From an uncultured Lachnospiraceae bacterium (lineage in GTDB: Bacteria > Bacillota > Clostridia > Lachnospirales > Lachnospiraceae): a DNA stretch of 62,722 bases. The first letter of the stretch is position 1, and each line of letters opens with the position of its first letter. Below the pieces are notes generated by a model. It was not told where the DNA came from. It did no database searches and saw nothing but the letters and a program-made list of their open reading frames with translations. Positions 9,235 through 52,245 of this stretch are shown here, piece by piece. The translations under genes were made by a program, and so were the position numbers. The DNA lies in contig CAMNJZ010000002.1 in NCBI GenBank assembly GCA_946541955.1, forward strand, positions 1 to 62,722, in the 5' to 3' direction.

Positions 9235-10488
9235 TCAGAGTCTGACCGCCGCTTCCGGCATGGTGATCCTGCCGGTGACCGCGGAGGCAGCCGCGCTGGC
9301 GGGAGACCCCAGGTAAATCTGGACCTTGTTGGTTCCCATCCGGCCCAGGAAGTTTCGGTTGTTGGTGGCCAGGACCCTTTCTCCGTCGGTCAGAATGCCG
9401 CCGGACCTGCCGCAGCAGAGGCCGCAGCCGGGGGTGGTGATGATGCAGCCTGCCTTTGCAAGGGTGGACATATAGCCGGCCTTGACCGCATCCAGATAGA
9501 TCTGTCTGGAAGCCGGGGTCACAATGGTCCTGATGGCCACCTTCTTTCCCTCCAGGATCTTTGCCGCCGTGGCAAGGTCCTCCAGGCGTCCGTTGGTGCA
9601 GGAGCCGATAAAGACCTGGTCCAGGGGCGTTCCTTCCACTTCGGAAATATTTTTGATGTTGTCCACCTGGGAAGGGCAGGCGCAGACAGGGACCAGGTCC
9701 TCTGCCCTGTAGGTCAGAGTCTTCACATACTCTGCGTCCTCGTCCCCATAGAGCCAGGAGACCTCCTCCATGCTGACGCCGGAATATTCGCAGGTCTTTT
9801 CATCGGGGGCAAAAAGGCCGCACTTGGCCCCGCATTCCACGGCCATGTTGGACATGGTGGTGCGGGCCGCAACGCTCATCTCCTTTACAGCTGAGCCTGT
9901 AAATTCCAGGGACCGGTAGGTGGCTCCGTCAGCCCGCAGATCGCCCAGGATCCGGAGAATAATGTCCTTGCTCATGACATTGTCAGGAAGCTTTCCGTCG
10001 ATCACGACCCGGATGGTCTCAGGCACCCGGATCCAGAGCTTGCCGGTCCCCAGGATGCCGGCCATTTCCGTATAGCCGATGCCGGTGGAAAAGCAGCCTA
10101 CGCTGCCGTAGGTGGTGGTATGGGAGTCCGTGCCGAATACGATGTCGCCGGGCTTTGCATAGCGCATCTCTGTCATCAGCTGATGGCAGATGCCGTCGGT
10201 CCTGTGGACATGGGTCATGCCCTGCTCAGCCGCGAAGGCGTCGCCGATGCGGAAGTGTCTGGAGTCCTCCACCTTGGCCGCAGGGACCATGTGGTCATAG
10301 ATCAGGACCACCTTGTCGGGGTCCCAGAGCTTTGTAAAGCCCATCTCCTTGAACTTGTCTGCCGCAAAGGGAATGAAGATATCGTGGATCATGACCCGGT
10401 CCACATCCACGGTCACGATCTGACCGGGGGTGACCTTTTCAATGCCTGTATTATGCTGAATGATTTTTTCGATCAGTGTGCTTCCCAT
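9235..10488 (-). CDS. leuC: 3-isopropylmalate dehydratase large subunit, copy 1
   Basis: Aconitase-family hydro-lyase with a [4Fe-4S] cluster. It isomerises 2- to 3-isopropylmalate in leucine synthesis and, in many relatives, citramalate through citraconate. Cluster cysteines are visible in IGSCTNGR and the CGLC motif (PGCGLCCGRSGG). FGTDSHTTTYG and NNRNFLGRMG are family motifs. At 417 residues it is of the archaeal or homoaconitase-like LeuC type, not the long E. coli form. AAGGAGGACTGAGC ahead of its ATG overlaps the end of the small-subunit gene, so the pair is translationally coupled. It is clearly diverged from copy 2. Substrate assignment between the two copies is open; homoaconitase or dimethylmalate dehydratase activity cannot be excluded. 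Confidence 0.85.
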   Translation of the reverse strand: MGSTLIEKIIQHNTGIEKVTPGQIVTVDVDRVMIHDIFIPFAADKFKEMGFTKLWDPDKVVLIYDHMVPAAKVEDSRHFRIGDAFAAEQGMTHVHRTDGICHQLMTEMRYAKPGDIVFGTDSHTTTYGSVGCFSTGIGYTEMAGILGTGKLWIRVPETIRVVIDGKLPDNVMSKDIILRILGDLRADGATYRSLEFTGSAVKEMSVAARTTMSNMAVECGAKCGLFAPDEKTCEYSGVSMEEVSWLYGDEDAEYVKTLTYRAEDLVPVCACPSQVDNIKNISEVEGTPLDQVFIGSCTNGRLEDLATAAKILEGKKVAIRTIVTPASRQIYLDAVKAGYMSTLAKAGCIITTPGCGLCCGRSGGILTDGERVLATNNRNFLGRMGTNKVQIYLGSPASAAASAVTGRITMPEAAVRL

Positions 10489-10490
10489 GC

Positions 10491-10991
10491 TCAGTCCTCC
10501 TTCAGGATCCCGTTGCGCCTCTGCATGGCCCTGACCAGGCCGCCGGCGTTTAATATTTCCATCAGGTTGTCGGGAAGGGAGGCAATGGGATACTCCTTAT
10601 CTCCTGCCACAAGGGCCTCGCCCACCCGGACGGTAAGGGTGTCGCCTTCCTTCACAGCGTCCTGGATCTGGTCGTTCTCGATCAGAAGAAGGCCGTTGTT
10701 GATGGAATTTCTGAAGAAGATCCTGGCGTAGGATTTGGCGATCACGCAGGAGACCTTCAGGGCCTTGATGATCTCGGGCGCCTGCTCTCTGGAGGAGCCG
10801 CAGCCGAAATTCTTGCCGGCCACAATGATATCGCCCTCCTGGATCAGGCCGGGAAGCTCCGGACGCAGGGGATAGAAGCCGTACTGTTTCATATCGTCAA
10901 TGGTGGGAAGGGCCAGGTATTCGGTGGGAATGATGATATCGGTATCGATGTCGTCTCCCAGCACCCAGACTTTACCGGTAAATTCTTTCAT
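10491..10991 (-). CDS. leuD: 3-isopropylmalate dehydratase small subunit, copy 1
   Basis: The swivelling small subunit that completes the active site of the neighbouring large subunit. GDDIDTDIIIPTEYLALP, GKNFGCGSSREQAPEIIKALKV and IAKSYARIFFRNSINNGLL are the family motifs. The substrate-selecting loop after the first helix reads YLALPTIDDM, hydrophobic where homoaconitase-type subunits carry arginine (YLRT). That favours isopropylmalate- or citramalate-like substrates. The 166-residue length is typical. The gene order is small then large, and it starts 43 bases after the copy 2 large subunit ends. Confidence 0.85.
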   Translation of the reverse strand: MKEFTGKVWVLGDDIDTDIIIPTEYLALPTIDDMKQYGFYPLRPELPGLIQEGDIIVAGKNFGCGSSREQAPEIIKALKVSCVIAKSYARIFFRNSINNGLLLIENDQIQDAVKEGDTLTVRVGEALVAGDKEYPIASLPDNLMEILNAGGLVRAMQRRNGILKED

Positions 10992-11034
10992 TGAAAAACC
11001 TTACTTTCTCCGGAACAGAGCCGGCTGCCTTTTC

Positions 11035-12291
11035 TTACAGATCCTCGGGGCCGCAGATATATCCTGCCACAGCGGAGGCTGCGCAGACAGCGGCGTTGGC
11101 CATATATACCTTGGAGGAGGGAGCGCCGCTGCGTCCCTTGAAGTTCCTGGTGCCGGTGGTAATGAGGACCTCGTTCTCACCGATGACGCCCTGGCAGGCG
11201 CCCCAGCAGACCGAGCAGTTGGTGTTCATGACCATGGCGCCGGCTTCCATAAAGATGGTGATCAGACCTTCCTCCAGGGCCTGGAGATAGACGGCCTGGG
11301 AGGCGGGGGCGATCAGCATGCGGACTTTCGGAGATACCTTTCTTCCCTTCAGGACGGCTGCCGCCTGGCGCATCTCGTCGATGCGGCCGTTGTTGCAGGA
11401 GCCCACGAAAGCTTCGTCGATGGCCACCTTCTCCTTCTTCACGTCGGAAAGAAGGGCAAAGTTATCCACGAAGTCTGGCCTTACGCAGACAGGCTCGATC
11501 TTGTCCAGGTCATAGTCATAGACGGCCGCGTAAACGGCGTCTTCATCGCTTTTGAACATATGGACGACTTCTCGTCCATGCTCTCTGCAGTATTCCACGA
11601 CTTTTTCATCGGGTTCACAGATGCCCGCCTTGGCACCGGCTTCCACTGTCAGGTTGCAGAGGACAAAGCGGTCGTTGATGGACATGGCGTGCTCGCCGTC
11701 TCCGGCAAACTCCATGATCTTATAGTTGGCCCCGTTGGCGCCGATATCGCCGATAATGGTCAGGATCAGATCTCTGGGATAGACCCCCTCCCGGAGCTTT
11801 CCGTGCAGGTTGAAGCGGATGGTCTCGGGCACCATGACCCAGGACTGTCCTGTGACCATGGCGTAGAGGAAATCCGTACAGCCAACGCCCGTTCCGAAGG
11901 CCCCCAGGGCGCCGTAGGTGGTGGTATGGGAGTCCGCACCGAAGATCAGCTCACCGGGACAGACATAGTCCTCCATCATGATCTGATGGCAGACGCCCTG
12001 GCCCTCGTAGAGCTTTATGTTGTTCTCCCGGGCAAAATCCCGCATCTTCCTGTGGGCCGCCGCCGTCTTGGCCGAGTCGGCCGGCACGTTGTGGTCCATG
12101 ATGAAGACCACCTTTTCAGGATCTGCGATCCGGGGATGCTTTAACTTGTTATGATACATATCCACCGTCAGATGGGTGGTGCCGTCGTTGGACATCATCC
12201 TGTCCAGGGTAACGGTATGGATATCGCCCGGCTTTACCTGGTCTACGCCGGCGGCTCTGGCTATGATCTTTTCACCGATTGTCATTCCCAT
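11035..12291 (-). CDS. leuC: 3-isopropylmalate dehydratase large subunit, copy 2
   Basis: A second aconitase-family large subunit of 418 residues. Motifs are GADSHTTTYGALGAFGTGVG, VGSCNNGR (the usual T is N), the cluster pair CSVC within NTNCSVCWGACQG, and TRNFKGRSG. It differs widely from copy 1, notably in the residues around the cluster (CSVCWG against CGLCCG), so this is an old paralogue or separate acquisition and not a recent duplication. It is preceded by its own small subunit with two bases between stop and start. It may serve leucine synthesis while copy 1 serves citramalate isomerisation, or the reverse. Confidence 0.85.
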   Translation of the reverse strand: MGMTIGEKIIARAAGVDQVKPGDIHTVTLDRMMSNDGTTHLTVDMYHNKLKHPRIADPEKVVFIMDHNVPADSAKTAAAHRKMRDFARENNIKLYEGQGVCHQIMMEDYVCPGELIFGADSHTTTYGALGAFGTGVGCTDFLYAMVTGQSWVMVPETIRFNLHGKLREGVYPRDLILTIIGDIGANGANYKIMEFAGDGEHAMSINDRFVLCNLTVEAGAKAGICEPDEKVVEYCREHGREVVHMFKSDEDAVYAAVYDYDLDKIEPVCVRPDFVDNFALLSDVKKEKVAIDEAFVGSCNNGRIDEMRQAAAVLKGRKVSPKVRMLIAPASQAVYLQALEEGLITIFMEAGAMVMNTNCSVCWGACQGVIGENEVLITTGTRNFKGRSGAPSSKVYMANAAVCAASAVAGYICGPEDL

Positions 12292-12293
12292 GA

Positions 12294-12773
12294 TCAGTTC
12301 TCCTCCTTGTTAAGGGATGCGATCAGACCACCCTGGTTCAGGATGTTCTGCATGTAGGCGGGGAGCTTTGTGCAGGTAAAAACATGGCCGCCTGCGGTAA
12401 CGGTGCCTGCGGTCAGGTCCAGATCGGCGCTGCCGCCGTCCTCTACGTTTTCATAGAGGTCCTTGCAGACAATGACGGGAAGACCGATGTTGATGGCATT
12501 GCGGTAAAAGATCCTGGCAAAGGATTTGGCGATGACCGCCTTGATGCCCAGGGCCTTGAGGACGCTGGGCGCCTGCTCTCTGGAAGACCCGCAGCCGAAG
12601 TTCTCAGCCGCCACGACAAGATCTCCTGCCTGGGCCTTCTTTGCAAAGGAAGGATCCAGGGATTCAAAGGTATACTGGCTCATCTCCTCAACAGTGGGGA
12701 GGAGGAGGTACTGGGACGCAATGATCTGGTCCGTATCGACATCGTTATGGAATTTCCATACTTTACTGCTCAT
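12294..12773 (-). CDS. leuD: 3-isopropylmalate dehydratase small subunit, copy 2
   Basis: A 159-residue small subunit with NDVDTDQIIASQYLLLP, AENFGCGSSREQAPSVLKALG and IAKSFARIFYRNAINIGLPV. Its substrate loop is YLLLPTVEEM, with leucine where copy 1 has alanine, a difference that may change side-chain preference. It is the first gene of the leuD-leuC-leuD-leuC-ruvA-ruvB-zapA run. AGGAGGCCAGCATCC leads to its ATG, and the promoter candidate at 12882-12854 lies about 80 bases upstream. No T-box or leader peptide was recognised. Confidence 0.85.
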   Translation of the reverse strand: MSSKVWKFHNDVDTDQIIASQYLLLPTVEEMSQYTFESLDPSFAKKAQAGDLVVAAENFGCGSSREQAPSVLKALGIKAVIAKSFARIFYRNAINIGLPVIVCKDLYENVEDGGSADLDLTAGTVTAGGHVFTCTKLPAYMQNILNQGGLIASLNKEEN

Positions 12774-45559: not shown

Positions 45560-47413
45560 TTATTTTTCAGGGACCATCTTCCGATAGATGTCAAAGGTCT
45601 CCTGGTCATAGGCCACCATAAAAACGGTCATGCCGTAGGCGGGATTTTTCCGGATCCAGTCCGTGACCGCCTTCAGGGCAACGCCGGCCGCCTCCTCCTT
45701 GGGATAGCCGTAAATGCCGGTGGAAATGGCGGGGAAGGCGATGGAATGGAGGCCCTTCTCCATGGCCAGGTCCAGAGAGTTGGTATAGGCTGCGGCCAGA
45801 AGCGTGCTGTCCTCGGCCGTGCCGTGGTAAACAGGTCCGACGGCATGGATCACATGGCCGGCAGGAAGGCCATAGCCGCCCGTGATCACGGCGCTCCCTG
45901 TATTGCAGCCGCCGATCTCTGCGCATTCTCTGGCCAGTTCCGGACCGGCCGCGGCGTGGATGGCGCCGCATACGCCGCCGCCCGGGGTCAGGGCGCTGTT
46001 GGCTGCATTGACAATGCATTCCGCCTTGATCTTTGTGATATCTCCCTTGACAAAGGTAATCTTGTTGCCGGGCTTTTTCACAGCCCCCTCCAGGGCCTTC
46101 AGGATGCCCCGCACCACCTCGGCTGTAAGGGGCACGGAGGTCTGCCTGTCTGCAGGATTCAGCACCAGGCCGGCCACGGCAGGCTGCCCCTTCTCGGAGG
46201 CGGCGACCCGCCGGAGGATATCCCGCAGGGGCATGGAGGCTACAAAGGCCTGCTTGCTGCCGGTCTTTTTGAGCTGGTCCTCACTGGTGAAAACAGGCTG
46301 CCAGAATTTGTCGTCTGCAGGCGATTTGAGAAGCTGCAGCTGGAGCCTGGGTTTCCCTTCCTCAGACCCGGGGGCAGGTCTTGCCGGGACCAGGACCCTG
46401 GCGTTCTCCGCGCATCTGGCCGCGATGGTCCCCACCAGGCCCGCATAATTGGCCTGGCTCCGGTCCCTGTTCCAGGCCCGGATCTTTTCCTCCAGAGGCT
46501 CGTTCCCCACAGCCTTCATCTGGCTGGGCACAGGGCCCTGGCTTTTAGGCTGCAGAGCCTGCTCCCACCTGGCTTTTCTTTCCGGGTCAGCTTCTCTGGC
46601 CCTTCTGTCTTCCTCCACCTTTTTGTCGAACCGGTCCAGGATCTCCAGCAGGTCGCTGGTCAGCATGTCGCGGGCGGCCGCCTTCAGGTCCTCCGGGACC
46701 CCGAAGAGGGCTTCCGCCATGGAGCCGGCGATACAGGTGAGGGTATCCGAATCTCCGCCCAGAGAAACGGCGGTCCGGATCACGTCTTCAAAATCCTCTC
46801 CCTCCAAAAAGGCCGTCATGGCTTCGGGCACGGTCTCCTGACAGGATTCCACATGATGATAGGTGGGCCGGATCTGGTCGCAGGTCCTGGTCAGATCGTA
46901 TTTATACTGGTCCGTGACGAATTTACGGATAAAGTCCTTGTCCTTTCCATGCAGGGCCAGGAAGATGGCCGCCGCCACCGAGACGGCGCCCTTTACGCCC
47001 TCGGGATGGTTATGGGTCACCTCTGCGCTCAGGCGGGCCACATGGAGCATTCTGCCAAAGTCGTCCTGGATCAGCCACGGAATGGCGGAGACCCGCATAG
47101 CAGACCCGTTCCCATAGGACTGATAGGGCTTTGGCGCATCGTCATAGAGCCAGGCGCTGAACTTGACACCGTAGCCGGCAAAGGGATAGCGCCTGCCGAT
47201 GGTCTGCATGGATTCCACCAGGGCGGCCTTGATTGCCTCGTCAGAGGCGTCGGTGCCGGCCCGCATCAGGGCGTCCGCCACCGCCAGGGTCATGATGGAG
47301 TCGTCCGTGAATTCAGACCGGTCCGAGAACAGGTCGAATTCCTTGGTCTTGATATTGTGTGAATCGAATTCGTAGGGACTGCCGATGATGTCCCCCAGTA
47401 TTGCTCCGTACAT
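45560..47413 (-). CDS. ADP-ribosylglycohydrolase / SseB-like / macrodomain fusion
   Basis: A 617-residue protein with three domains. Residues 1-260 are an ADP-ribosylglycohydrolase: GAILGDIIGSPYEF, metal ligands in EFTDDSIMT (35-42), THNHPEGVKGA and GGDSDTLTCIAGSMAEA (219-235). Residues about 305-445 look like an SseB N-terminal domain (WQPVFTSEDQLKK, FVASMPLRDIL, AGLVLNPAD). Residues 450-617 are a macrodomain: GDITKIKAECIVNAANSAL, GGGVCGAIHAAAGPEL (478-493) and PAISTGIYGYPKEEA. The macrodomain has Cys where MacroD-type enzymes carry a catalytic Asp. It probably removes ADP-ribose from proteins or small molecules in two chemical contexts. Its ATG follows the HAD gene stop directly (TAAATG). 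Confidence 0.9.
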   Translation of the reverse strand: MYGAILGDIIGSPYEFDSHNIKTKEFDLFSDRSEFTDDSIMTLAVADALMRAGTDASDEAIKAALVESMQTIGRRYPFAGYGVKFSAWLYDDAPKPYQSYGNGSAMRVSAIPWLIQDDFGRMLHVARLSAEVTHNHPEGVKGAVSVAAAIFLALHGKDKDFIRKFVTDQYKYDLTRTCDQIRPTYHHVESCQETVPEAMTAFLEGEDFEDVIRTAVSLGGDSDTLTCIAGSMAEALFGVPEDLKAAARDMLTSDLLEILDRFDKKVEEDRRAREADPERKARWEQALQPKSQGPVPSQMKAVGNEPLEEKIRAWNRDRSQANYAGLVGTIAARCAENARVLVPARPAPGSEEGKPRLQLQLLKSPADDKFWQPVFTSEDQLKKTGSKQAFVASMPLRDILRRVAASEKGQPAVAGLVLNPADRQTSVPLTAEVVRGILKALEGAVKKPGNKITFVKGDITKIKAECIVNAANSALTPGGGVCGAIHAAAGPELARECAEIGGCNTGSAVITGGYGLPAGHVIHAVGPVYHGTAEDSTLLAAAYTNSLDLAMEKGLHSIAFPAISTGIYGYPKEEAAGVALKAVTDWIRKNPAYGMTVFMVAYDQETFDIYRKMVPEK

Positions 47414-48406: not shown

Positions 48407-48415
48407 TGCTACAAT
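48407..48415 (+). promoter_or_regulatory. Extended -10 of the FtsK-like gene
   Basis: TGCTACAAT (TACAAT at 48410-48415) matches an extended -10 in an AT-rich region; the -35 region (TTTATT) is poor. A small ACGGG/CCCGT hairpin (48425-48439) follows in the leader. Confidence 0.5.
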
Positions 48416-48487: not shown

Positions 48488-49639
48488 ATGTCAGAATACA
48501 CCCTGCCCGATTACACCGGGTTTCTTCGTTATCATACAAAATGGAACCGTAAAAACCTGGGCCCCTACGAAGAAGAGCTCTTCGAGCTCTTTGGAGAGAA
48601 CGGAATCCGCTGCCAGAAGCTTGTAAAGCTCCAGGGACCCGCCATGACCCGCTTTATCGTAACCCCCGACAGCCGGGCCGACCAGAAAAAGCTCTGCGGC
48701 CTCAAACCCTACTACAAAGTCATCTTCGAACGAAAGGACGTAACCGTCTATCCCCATAAGGGAAGGACCTATATTGATGTTCCCTGGCAGAGCGACGCTG
48801 TCTGGCTGGGGGATCTTCTGGTATCCGAATCCTATACGACCTCCCGCGGCCTGCCCGCGGCTGTCGGCATGTCTCTTTCCAGAAAGGGCATCTTTGTGGA
48901 CCTGACGGACATCGCCACGCCCCACCTTCTGGTCAGCGGCAGCAGATCCGAGGGGATCGGGACCTTTCTGCATGGACTGGTGCTCTCCCTCCTCCTTAAC
49001 CACAGGCCGGGGGATGTTTCCTTCTGGCTCTGCGGGGATGCGTCGGTGAGCTTTTCCCAGTACAGCTCCCTGTCCAATGTCCGGGTCTGCGAGGACGAGC
49101 CCGGCACCCGGAAGATGATCAAGGACGCCCTTTCCCTGATCCACAGGCGCCTGGACCTCCTGGCCCGGGCCGGCTGCGAGTCCATCTATGACTATGACAG
49201 GTCCATGGACCACATCATTCTGGTCATCAACGACGGGGACGCCCTTTTGTCCCACCGCCGGAGGGAGATCAGCCGGATCCTGACGGACCTCCTCTCCTTT
49301 GGTCCCGAGACCGGCGTGCATGTGATCTTTCATGCGGAGCACCCTGCCTGCGCCGCAGACCTTCTGGATTTCTTCCAGGCCATCGCCTGCTTCCGCACCG
49401 CTTCCAAGGAGGATTCCGTCTTTCTTCTGGGATCCGATCTGGCCTGGCATCTGGGCGGCAGGGGCGAGCTCTACCTGCTGGACGGCTATCATGAGGAGCC
49501 CCGCTTTCTGCAGGGAGCCGGCATCACCTTCCTGGAAATAAAAAGAGCTGTCCAGGAGTTATCCGTTCATTCCGATCAGATCTCCGGGACAGTCCCTCAG
49601 TCCATGGGCTTCTGGCAGAAGCTCTTTGCCCGGGTATGA
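48488..49639 (+). CDS. FtsK/SpoIIIE-like protein with degenerate ATPase motifs
   Basis: A 383-residue protein that aligns along the FtsK/SpoIIIE motor core but lacks the N-terminal membrane domain and the C-terminal winged helix. Matching segments are GPAMTRFIVTP (50-60), YIDVPW and LGDLL, LPAAVGMSLSRKGIFVDLTDIATPHLLVSG (122-151), LSLLLNHRPGDVSFWLCGD, RLDLLARAGCESIYDYD and HLGGRGELYLLDG. The Walker A that should read GATGSGKS is GSRSEGIGT (151-159) with no lysine. The Walker B region is HIILVINDGDAL (242-252), with N-D where motors have D-E. It is very unlikely to hydrolyse ATP. No membrane segment is seen. It may be a structural or regulatory partner of an active complex. It is convergent with the YbjN-like and AAA+ genes. 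Confidence 0.85.
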   Translation: MSEYTLPDYTGFLRYHTKWNRKNLGPYEEELFELFGENGIRCQKLVKLQGPAMTRFIVTPDSRADQKKLCGLKPYYKVIFERKDVTVYPHKGRTYIDVPWQSDAVWLGDLLVSESYTTSRGLPAAVGMSLSRKGIFVDLTDIATPHLLVSGSRSEGIGTFLHGLVLSLLLNHRPGDVSFWLCGDASVSFSQYSSLSNVRVCEDEPGTRKMIKDALSLIHRRLDLLARAGCESIYDYDRSMDHIILVINDGDALLSHRRREISRILTDLLSFGPETGVHVIFHAEHPACAADLLDFFQAIACFRTASKEDSVFLLGSDLAWHLGGRGELYLLDGYHEEPRFLQGAGITFLEIKRAVQELSVHSDQISGTVPQSMGFWQKLFARV

Positions 49640-49664: not shown

Positions 49665-50150
49665 TCATTCATTGTCACTTATGCTCTTAAGCGCTGCCTT
49701 CTGCAGCGCTTTTTTTGCGTCCGAAAAGCCCAGCATGACCGAGACCAGGGCATCCAGATAGGTGCCAAGGACGATCACCGGGAGTGAGACCAGGTGATCG
49801 ATCATGTCATAGGAGGGCAAAAGGCCTGCGCAGTCCAGTCCAAAGCGGAACCAGACCTCTCCGCTGTCCACATCCATCAGGAAGGCCCCGAAATTCAGGG
49901 CCGCATTCAGGCGGAGAACAAACTCCATGGTCTCCCGCAGGGCCCCTCTCTCACAGACCAGGGCGATCCTGGTCTCCGAGATCAGGGTCGTAGCGCCGAC
50001 GCTGATCTCCATCTGGGCCTGCCTGAGCCGGCTCTCCAGGGGGATCGTCAGACTGAAGGTCCCCTCGTCCTGATCAAAGCGGCTGCGGTAGCGGTTCATT
50101 TCAAAGTAGCGCTCCAGGGCCGCTGCCATTTCTTTCGAATATTCTGCCAC
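49665..50150 (-). CDS. YbjN-like protein
   Basis: A 161-residue soluble protein resembling the YbjN family, which shares the fold of type III secretion chaperones: FSLTIPLESRLRQAQMEISVG, RGALRETMEFVLRLNAALNFGAFLMDVDSGEVWFRFGLDCAG, and SLPVIVLGTYLDALVSVMLGF. The family call is by pattern and moderate. The start is a GTG at 50150 with AAGGAGG six bases upstream; the longer frame from an ATG at 50216 overlaps the AAA+ gene and has no such site. It begins 23 bases after the AAA+ gene, so the two form an operon. Its last codons contain the terminator of the convergent FtsK-like gene. Confidence 0.6.
   Translation of the reverse strand: MAEYSKEMAAALERYFEMNRYRSRFDQDEGTFSLTIPLESRLRQAQMEISVGATTLISETRIALVCERGALRETMEFVLRLNAALNFGAFLMDVDSGEVWFRFGLDCAGLLPSYDMIDHLVSLPVIVLGTYLDALVSVMLGFSDAKKALQKAALKSISDNE
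49690..49717 (+). terminator. Intrinsic terminator of the FtsK-like gene
   Basis: Plus-strand stem AGCGCTGC/GCAGCGCT (8 bp, loop CTTCT) followed by TTTTTTT. It lies inside the coding end of the convergent YbjN-like gene. Confidence 0.87.
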
Positions 50151-50172
50151 AGACAGCCTCCTTTCTTCCTGC

Positions 50173-52245
50173 TCAGGATCCGAATCCGTATCTGGACTGG
50201 CTGCGGGTCTTCTCATTCATGCTTTCGTTCCGCTCCCTGCAGGCTGTGCGGAAGTCCTCCCGCAGAATCTCCAGGCCTTCCTTGCCCCTGCCCTCCATCT
50301 GGACCCGGAGGATGGCGTAGGACCTGGTCTTTTCAAAGAGATTCTGGAGGAATCTGGCGTTGGCCAGCTTCAGGTCCTTCAGATCCAGGGAGGCGAAATA
50401 GGCTTCCACATCCTCTTCAAGGCCCTGCCCGGCCTTCAGGCCGTTTTTGGCGATCATCTGCATAAAGATCCTGGCCATGGTATCGGCTTCATAGTCTTCA
50501 AAGCGGACCAGGGTGGGAATGCAGGCGCAGAGGGCCGGATATTTCTTCCGCAGCTTCTCCAGGCGCTTTGCGTCTCCCGCAAAGATCACCACACAGTCTC
50601 CGGAATGGGTCTCCAGGAAGGTGGTCAGTACGTTGACGGCCTTGAAGGCAAAGTCTCTGCTGTCCGCCTCGATGGTATAGGCCCTGCCCCGCTCCGTGTC
50701 TTCGATCTTCTCGATTTCCGGCCGTCTTGTCTCCTCTTCCTCCAGGAAGGCGTCCAGATCATCGATCAGAAGAACGCTGCCTATGGCGTCCCTGCAGATG
50801 GTCATGGATGCAGGCACGGACATGCCGATCTCCGGTACCACCAGATCGCAGGCCCGGTGCTCGAACAAAAGGCCCCGTTCCAGAAAGCCTCTCTCCCGCA
50901 GCATCAGGGCCAGGATCCTGGCCGCCAGGCTCCTGCCGGTCCCGCTTTCTCCTTCAAAGAAGATGCCGGAATACATGGGCTCCTTTTTGTCCGCTGCGCC
51001 GGTCAAAGCGTCTGCCGCAGCCCGAAGCTGGGCCTCCACCTTCTCAAAGCCGGCCAGGGACCGGAGAATGTCCTCCGAACTCTTATTCCAGATCCTGCTG
51101 CGGACCATTTCCTTCAAATCTTCCCCGGTAATGGTCCTGCTGCCGGGACGGATCCCTCTGGCAGCCGCCCGGAGCCGCAGATAGACCATTTCGTCAAAGA
51201 TCCGGTCCGCTGTCCGGATGCCCTGGAAGCGGCCGTCGGATTTTTCCTCCGCGATCCTTTCATAGAAGGTCTGCCAGGCGCTCTCGTCCGCATGCAGGTC
51301 CATCTCCTCCAGCTCCTCCTCCACAAGCCTTTTCAGCTCCGGAAGGGAGACCGGCACAAAGCTGACGGTCCGGACATACATGATCTCGGACAGGACCGAA
51401 GCGATCCGCTCCAGGACGTTCTGCTCCAGGCAGGGCACGGTGAAGACATAGATCACGTTGTCTGTATTTTCCTGGAGGGAGGCCAGGAACTGGCCAAATT
51501 CCGGGGCGTCGATCCGCTCTGTCCATTCGCTGATGTCCAGGGCGACGATGATATCGGAGGAAAGCACGATGGAGGCGCTGAAGGATTCCAGCACGTCCTG
51601 GGTCTGGTTGTTGCCAAGAATGTTCTCGGCGGCGTTCTTGCCCATGGACATCTGCATCATGCTGGAAAGAGGGACCTTCCTCTTGACGACTCTCGCCGCG
51701 GGAAAAAGCCCGTCCTCCCTGAGGAGCTCTGCAAAAAGATCCAGGGAAAGGCCCAGCATCTCCCTGGAATCGCAGCTCATCAGATAGGATCTGGAGACCA
51801 GGGTATCCCTGGCTTCCTCCCGGATCAGGCCTGCCGCCATGGCGTGGATCTCCTCGCAGAGGCTGATGAATTCCCCGGCCCCGCAAAGGCTCCTTATGGA
51901 ATCCATGGCGGACCGGGCGGCCCCGGCATTTTCGGAGGGCATCTCCGGCAGGTCCCCGGTCCCCTCCACCGCCTCGTCCGGGGCGGCAAAAAATTCAAAG
52001 AGGGCCTTTGCCTCCTCCTTTTCGATCCCGAAGGCCTTGGAGAGGATCTCCGCCACCTGGTCTGCCAGGTCTTCGGGCGGCAGGTCCTTTTCATCCGTCC
52101 GCACCGTCAGCACAAAGCTCTGGCTGTCAATGAGCTTTGCCTTTTCTATCTTTTTCAGGGCATCCGCCAGAAGCGTCCCGGGAAGGACCTTGTCATAAAA
52201 ATGCTCTTTAACAAACTCTTCATTCAGTCTGATCTGTATATACAT
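50173..52245 (-). CDS. CbxX/SpoVK-like AAA+ protein with altered Walker motifs
   Basis: A 690-residue protein. The C-terminal half (about 385-650) matches CbxX/CfqX AAA+ ATPases: GIFFEGESGTGRSLAARILA, VLLIDDLDAFL, CVVIFAGDAKRLEKLRKKYPAL and RFEDYEADTMARIFMQMI. Walker A is GESGTGRS (432-439) with Arg for the lysine, and Walker B has D-D (495-496) in place of D-E. The half before it (about 220-385) looks like a second AAA+ module without any Walker A: IIVALDISEW and FVPVSLPELKRLVEEELEEM. The N-terminal 100 residues are not recognised. ATP binding may persist but hydrolysis is doubtful. AAGGAATAAGTC precedes the ATG. CbxX-type ATPases pair with FtsK-type ATPases in ESX (type VII) secretion as EccA and EccC, but no other secretion gene is seen here. 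Confidence 0.85.
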   Translation of the reverse strand: MYIQIRLNEEFVKEHFYDKVLPGTLLADALKKIEKAKLIDSQSFVLTVRTDEKDLPPEDLADQVAEILSKAFGIEKEEAKALFEFFAAPDEAVEGTGDLPEMPSENAGAARSAMDSIRSLCGAGEFISLCEEIHAMAAGLIREEARDTLVSRSYLMSCDSREMLGLSLDLFAELLREDGLFPAARVVKRKVPLSSMMQMSMGKNAAENILGNNQTQDVLESFSASIVLSSDIIVALDISEWTERIDAPEFGQFLASLQENTDNVIYVFTVPCLEQNVLERIASVLSEIMYVRTVSFVPVSLPELKRLVEEELEEMDLHADESAWQTFYERIAEEKSDGRFQGIRTADRIFDEMVYLRLRAAARGIRPGSRTITGEDLKEMVRSRIWNKSSEDILRSLAGFEKVEAQLRAAADALTGAADKKEPMYSGIFFEGESGTGRSLAARILALMLRERGFLERGLLFEHRACDLVVPEIGMSVPASMTICRDAIGSVLLIDDLDAFLEEEETRRPEIEKIEDTERGRAYTIEADSRDFAFKAVNVLTTFLETHSGDCVVIFAGDAKRLEKLRKKYPALCACIPTLVRFEDYEADTMARIFMQMIAKNGLKAGQGLEEDVEAYFASLDLKDLKLANARFLQNLFEKTRSYAILRVQMEGRGKEGLEILREDFRTACRERNESMNEKTRSQSRYGFGS

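Follow-up and report, generated by a model that had tools for sequence, protein, structure and literature searches.

A stand-alone FtsK-like motor core, catalytically dead by sequence, is maintained by purifying selection in one genus of Lachnospiraceae

Nearly all bacteria have FtsK, which is usually viewed as a homohexamer. A 62,722-nucleotide stretch of DNA from an uncultured Lachnospiraceae bacterium (contig CAMNJZ010000002.1 of assembly GCA_946541955.1; the whole stretch is referred to as the window) carries, besides the genes considered below, an FtsK-like gene at positions 48488..49639 whose product, here called pseudo-FtsK, raises the question of what an FtsK motor core can do once its ATP sites are gone. 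Judged from its sequence, a predicted structure and a tree, pseudo-FtsK is almost certainly a pseudo-motor, that is, a stand-alone FtsK alpha-beta core that derives from an FtsK within its bacterial family, no longer has the residues with which FtsK binds and hydrolyses ATP, trans-activates its neighbour and grips DNA, and is kept by purifying selection, presumably for a non-enzymatic function. The gene and its former active-site segments are located as follows.

48488..49639, + strand: pseudo-FtsK gene, a stand-alone alpha-beta motor core of 383 residues, predicted to be catalytically dead
48938..48964, + strand: former Walker A, GSRSEGIGT, residues 151–159 (GATGSGKS in FtsK); lysine in 0/34 pseudo-FtsKs versus 60/60 FtsKs
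49229..49234, + strand: former Walker B acids, N248-D249 (D-E in FtsK); the D595 equivalent is kept in 0/34, and the E596 equivalent is Glu in 31/34 and Asp in 3/34
49304..49306, + strand: position of the FtsK arginine finger (R620), residue 273, Pro in the window copy; Arg in 1/34 versus 60/60 FtsKs
49334..49375, + strand: former sensor and DNA-gripping loop II, residues 283–296, three residues shorter in the alignment with FtsKs

The open reading frame starts with ATG and matches Pfam FtsK_SpoIIIE with 49.1 bits (E 6.4e-13; cut-off 24). The closest solved structure by sequence is that of P. aeruginosa FtsK, with E values of 1.8e-10 for the single sequence and 2.1e-49 for the family profile. 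The structure models are monomers, and their comparison, which covered the best 50 matches, shows the whole alpha-beta fold of the FtsK/SpoIIIE translocases (PDB 6t8b, 2iut), with the motor at residues 5–365. Residues 361–383, with pLDDT means of 46–49, are predicted to form a low-confidence linker and the C-terminal end. Among the structural matches listed, fold and profile are nearer FtsK than EccC or TcpA. These results agree with the likeness to the FtsK motor core that an earlier note had read from the DNA letters. That note had also described the protein as standing alone, without membrane or DNA-reading domains; the N-terminal membrane part and the gamma domain of the translocases are indeed absent from the window copy, whereas the motor core is complete, comprising alpha as well as beta and not beta alone. 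The only other match in the window genome (85% complete) at E 1e-3 is FtsK itself.

The residues were compared in an alignment of 34 pseudo-FtsKs and 60 housekeeping FtsKs, of which 55 belong to the same genus and 5 to other genera in the family. The Walker A lysine, which we take to be K472 in FtsK, is missing throughout the pseudo-FtsKs, none of which keeps GKS/T at this position. The residue after it is Ser in 2/34 and Thr in 14/34, whereas it is Ser in 60/60 FtsKs, and 10/34 have a three-residue gap in the P-loop. The Walker B Asp, likewise, is present in 60/60 FtsKs and in no pseudo-FtsK. Both replacements read as the earlier note had given them, and the loss of the lysine, for which it had advised a check, is conserved. 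The three copies with Asp in place of the Walker B Glu are the one from the window, which is more degenerate than most, and its two nearest relatives.

For the residues that sense nucleotide or contact DNA, the available part of PMC7321959 names R620 as the arginine finger, K657 and R661 in loop I, and R632 and K643, with S634, V635 and G640, in loop II, and that of PMC9410874 names E596 as catalytic and T630 and Q631 as the sensor. T630 is kept in 2/34 pseudo-FtsKs (Ser in 29/34), Q631 in none, R632 in 5/34 (Lys in 11) and K643 in 5/34 (Arg in 14), versus 60/60 FtsKs in each case. The V635 column is a gap in 34/34, and R661 is found in 0/34 pseudo-FtsKs versus 57/60 FtsKs. The K657 column is variable even among the compared FtsKs and is therefore uninformative on loss. 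Pseudo-FtsK thus differs from the translocases in the eroded DNA loops, as well as in the missing Walker lysine, Walker B Asp and, in all copies except one, arginine finger.

Of the 62 same-genus genomes, 34 have pseudo-FtsK with a score of at least 517 bits; none of the other listed matches scores above 204 bits. No further genome exceeded 201 bits among 392 genomes of the order, the window's included, which were drawn evenly from a larger group and scored for at most four candidates each outside the first look; many of the compared genomes are incomplete assemblies. Scanning GTDB contigs with one peptide pattern gave 29 loci, of which, by record titles, 26 are from Lachnospiraceae, one from Eubacteriales and one from Sarcina sp. 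DSM 11001, the remaining one being a partial match in a record titled Bacteroidetes. Sarcina sp. DSM 11001 is placed in Clostridiaceae by NCBI and in the window's genus by the genome search. The carriers are gut and rumen bacteria that also have a normal FtsK. All 34 matches are free of inner stops, and NG86 dN/dS was 0–0.105 in the 28 closest of 561 pairs, which are not independent and many of which have dS near 1. Pseudo-FtsK is under purifying selection, as the earlier note had supposed in denying that the gene is a decaying pseudogene, and the frame-disrupting changes that it had suggested looking for are absent from the relatives.

The origin of the family was traced on two trees. In a quick tree of 60 FtsK motors, which lacked five non-carriers without a match at 1e-40 (G002, G009, G026, G050 and G058) and the carriers G001 and G033, the housekeeping FtsKs of 32 carriers group together (SH-aLRT 93; one change), to the exclusion of 23 non-carriers and 5 outgroup rows. 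In a second tree of 58 rows (13 of the 34 pseudo-FtsKs, 26 of the 60 FtsKs and 19 further FtsKs), the pseudo-FtsKs form one group (100/100) within the FtsKs of their own bacterial family (Lachnospiraceae by record titles; 100/98), weakly joined to one FtsK of that family (94/79). Their stem, 8.14 changes per site, is very long, so that the exact place is unsure; transfer from another genus and a duplication misplaced by its rate both fit.

In the housekeeping FtsK motor, a single column splits carriers from all others when the threshold is set at 80%. It is the equivalent of K657, a loop I DNA-contact residue, with Gln in 26/32 carriers and Gly in 26/28 others, outgroups included. A single event in the phylogeny could account for this split, which is no proof on its own. 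We consider it rather unlikely that the lineage fixed a dedicated dead FtsK paralogue that tunes the segregation motor while the housekeeping FtsK re-adapted concurrently. As a separate observation, the housekeeping FtsKs L155, L208, L209 and L178 sit on long branches in the quick tree; those of G000, G019 and G020 have a stem of 1.35 and that of G048 an end branch of 1.52, and they look as if they evolve faster than those of other carriers.

At seventeen positions, at least 95% of pseudo-FtsKs have a residue that at most 10% of FtsKs share; W19, P26, Y27, W100, D103, G108, M128, C230 and H242 are among them, and the prominent block reads VPWQxDxVWLGDLL. The N-terminal, W100–G108 and C-terminal segments are located as follows.

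48524..48577, + strand: N-terminal family motif, residues 13–30 (L13, H16, W19, P26, Y27); L13, W19, P26 and Y27 are family-specific and H16 is conserved
48779..48823, + strand: strongly conserved family block VPWQSDAVWLGDLLV, residues 98–112 (W100, D103, G108); FtsK has N in 60/60 at 100 and R in 57/60 at 108
49607..49636, + strand: C-terminal short motif GFWQKLFARV, residues 374–383, after the low-confidence linker

In relatives, the C-terminal end is either SxWxKLFSR-like or of the SIFDEI type. MinD has a membrane-targeting amphipathic C-terminus. A C-terminus of this kind was considered and rejected for pseudo-FtsK, since the hydrophobic moment was reached by fewer than 5% of shuffles in just 5/34 copies and one subclade is acidic (SIFDEI); a short docking motif is therefore preferred over a membrane anchor.

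Neighbourhoods were read at 21 loci and counted at 20, L034 being left out because its core gene was lost to an antisense call. The gene caller was greedy and sometimes took antisense open reading frames, so that the counts are lower bounds, and the domain scan of upstream genes covered the window's own copies. A divergent gene of a macro/ADP-ribosylglycohydrolase cluster lies upstream of pseudo-FtsK in at least 17/20 neighbourhoods, and an HAD-type gene lies nearby upstream in at least 14/20, adjoining pseudo-FtsK in at least 9. The window gene of the former similarity cluster (45560-47413, - strand) encodes a 617-residue fusion of ADP-ribosylglycohydrolase, SseB and macro domains. Among the 28 non-carriers, the HAD gene was matched in 25 and the macro-domain gene in 17 (E 1e-10 or better); these matches are largely partial or paralogous, and the insertion site was therefore not reconstructed. 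In L040, L041, L043 and L046, pseudo-FtsK faces a gene of the ftsZ cluster at the end of a division cluster. In that of L040, the sole one scanned, FtsZ, FtsW and PBP were clear, and FtsQ- and DivIC-like matches fell below the cut-off.

FtsK is a natural candidate partner of pseudo-FtsK, and a place in or on the FtsK ring is possible; the available part of PMC4728128 reports that rings tolerate single inactive subunits. We infer, tentatively and at somewhat less than even probability, that at the division site pseudo-FtsK acts on the cell's own FtsK as an adaptor or modulator. The retained motor fold would dock it on FtsK or let a single copy enter the ring, and the new conserved N-terminal and W100–G108 surfaces, together with the C-terminal short motif, would recruit another division or segregation protein. 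Without an arginine finger, pseudo-FtsK would not activate the neighbouring site, so that it may slow or gate the ring, with no driving of its own.

Several observations weigh against a role on FtsK. Of 152 positions conserved in at least 95% of FtsKs, 27 are kept in at least 90% of pseudo-FtsKs, a likeness to the translocases, and 71 survive in at most 10%; this low retention does not point to a preserved FtsK-FtsK interface. Convergent ftsZ and division genes lie downstream in those 4/20 neighbourhoods, all in one subclade, and the window's own subclade has convergent YbjN-like and AAA+ genes downstream instead. Another subclade has a same-direction HAD gene downstream in 5/20 and a same-direction alpha/beta-hydrolase gene upstream in 4/20, and there pseudo-FtsK may be co-transcribed with genes unrelated to division. 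In the second tree, the pseudo-FtsKs fall outside the FtsKs of their own genus (98/96), a position that the long stem makes unsure. Co-evolution with FtsK was considered and rejected: the rates of the two proteins correlate (Spearman 0.81, 171 pairs; partial correlation given TmcAL 0.66, 66 pairs), which is explicable by shared ancestry alone, and the flanking-gene sets contain mixed paralogues. Because few FtsK-invariant positions are retained and one subclade has non-division neighbours, we give nearly equal weight to an FtsK-independent adaptor or scaffold, in which the fold is reused, homo-oligomeric or monomeric, and an unrelated partner is bound through the N-terminal, W100–G108 and C-terminal motifs. 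The 17 family-specific positions, the deep remodelling that the stem length implies, and the short motif behind its linker would also fit this reading, which we regard as about as possible as the adaptor of FtsK. The loss of active-site and DNA-contact residues is itself incomplete in places: the Walker B Glu is kept in 31/34 (60/60 FtsKs), the first and third P-loop glycines in 31/34 and 28/34, and some members still have basic residues at the R632 and K643 positions, so that weak ligand or DNA binding may persist. A switch that binds a nucleotide or another ligand non-canonically, without hydrolysis, would fit the kept Glu and glycines; we regard it as improbable given the universal loss of the lysine, the next-position Ser or Thr in 16/34, the P-loop gap in 10/34 and the Asp for Glu in the window copy.

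The remaining explanations place pseudo-FtsK in other machines or deny it a function. Degenerate FtsK-type domains are already known from type VII secretion: in the available part of PMC11154593, EccC/EssC has FtsK-type domains (DUF, D2, D3) with catalytic motifs lost, the DUF being hypothesised to keep hexamerisation. Pseudo-FtsK shares this loss and also matches NCBIfam EccCb (38.0 bits), EssC (31.5) and EccCa (16.2), far below the cut-offs of 346.55, 778.4 and 509.15. However, the EccC/EssC domains are parts of large secretion proteins, whereas pseudo-FtsK is a separate gene with an FtsK alpha domain. EssC was found in 12/62 genus genomes (9/34 carriers and 3/28 non-carriers), and not in the window genome nor in 25/34 carriers, many of whose assemblies are incomplete, so that a role in type VII secretion is unlikely. 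The scanned neighbours (6 window proteins and 19 from other loci) include no genes for secretion or conjugation. TcpA, the pCW3 conjugation coupling protein (PDB 6o1x), is plasmid-borne and by its entry titles was solved with ATP or ATPgS; the structural match of pseudo-FtsK to it is weaker than that to FtsK, and the nucleotide-binding lysine is lost. These results, with a fold and profile nearer FtsK, make it very improbable that pseudo-FtsK serves a type VII secretion or conjugation machine as its substrate receptor or coupling subunit. Of the earlier note's reading, the loss of both ATP sites in a kept fold and the selection are supported, and the receptor in a secretion-like complex is not; the scaffold or inhibitor of a hexameric motor that it had also offered may apply. 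A decoy or sensor directed at the DNA pumps of phages or plasmids, suggested by weak matches to phage and defence proteins with FtsK-like domains, is less probable still, because the distribution is not patchy, the carriers falling into one group on the FtsK tree, and the chromosomal neighbourhood recurs. A phage or defence origin was likewise rejected: 19 phage and 22 plasmid records match at below 60% identity (21–26% among 12 matches listed) in a search that did not cover elements inside chromosomes, the 12 pattern matches of a viral contig scan include no relative, and PHROGs and PADLOC gave only generic FtsK-type matches, the sole PADLOC match among four window proteins being pseudo-FtsK itself. 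Finally, the P-loop loss by itself might indicate a decaying pseudogene, an assembly artefact or a contaminant, a reading already contradicted, and left with virtually no probability, by the open frames in 34 genomes, the low dN/dS, the recurrent neighbourhood and the copy in the record titled Sarcina sp. DSM 11001.

Two candidate transcription signals were located around the window gene.

48407..48415, + strand: extended -10 promoter element TGCTACAAT, identified by eye, within a block kept in the two closest relatives (L002, L003)
49689..49711, + strand: intrinsic terminator-like hairpin and T tract, a consensus match with a 9-pair stem, inside the 3' end of the convergent gene

By eye, the pattern TGnTAnAAT can be made out in 10 of 12 upstream regions, and an extended -10 is absent from L007 and L009 of the subclade with same-direction neighbours; a similar stem and T tract is readable in L002 and L003. 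A sigma-70 scan of the window gave no + strand promoter. In the window's subclade, pseudo-FtsK looks like a single transcription unit, with which the element read by eye and the hairpin agree. The promoter and terminator of its own that the earlier note had assigned to it are thus consistent with the window copy, and do not extend to some relatives with same-direction neighbours.

The convergent genes have features of their own. The AAA+ protein (50173-52245, - strand; 690 residues, SpoVK/CbbX/EccA-like) has the Walker A GxxGTGRS, with Lys replaced by Arg in 6/6 members of the neighbourhood family, and is a possible second pseudo-ATPase adjoining pseudo-FtsK. It is matched in 8/62 genus genomes (E 1e-20), two of which (G016 and G012) lack pseudo-FtsK. 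The YbjN-like gene (49665-50216, - strand) overlaps the AAA+ gene by 44 bases and is matched in 6/62 genus genomes, all six being carriers in the window's subclade. Elsewhere in the window, 9235-12773 (- strand) holds two tandem pairs of similar genes, the large subunits forming one cluster and the small ones another; they are presumably leuC/leuD, and one pair may serve another substrate.

Among the titles and abstract starts listed by searches of an open-access library, none concerned a stand-alone dead FtsK. A clade-wide stand-alone pseudo-FtsK is a natural test of whether the FtsK motor can be regulated by a dead paralogue. It can also be compared with the degenerate FtsK-type domains of type VII secretion, the role of which is unsettled in the available part of PMC11154593. 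The record title of one carrier, Sarcina sp. DSM 11001, bears a culture-collection name, which may make pseudo-FtsK testable.
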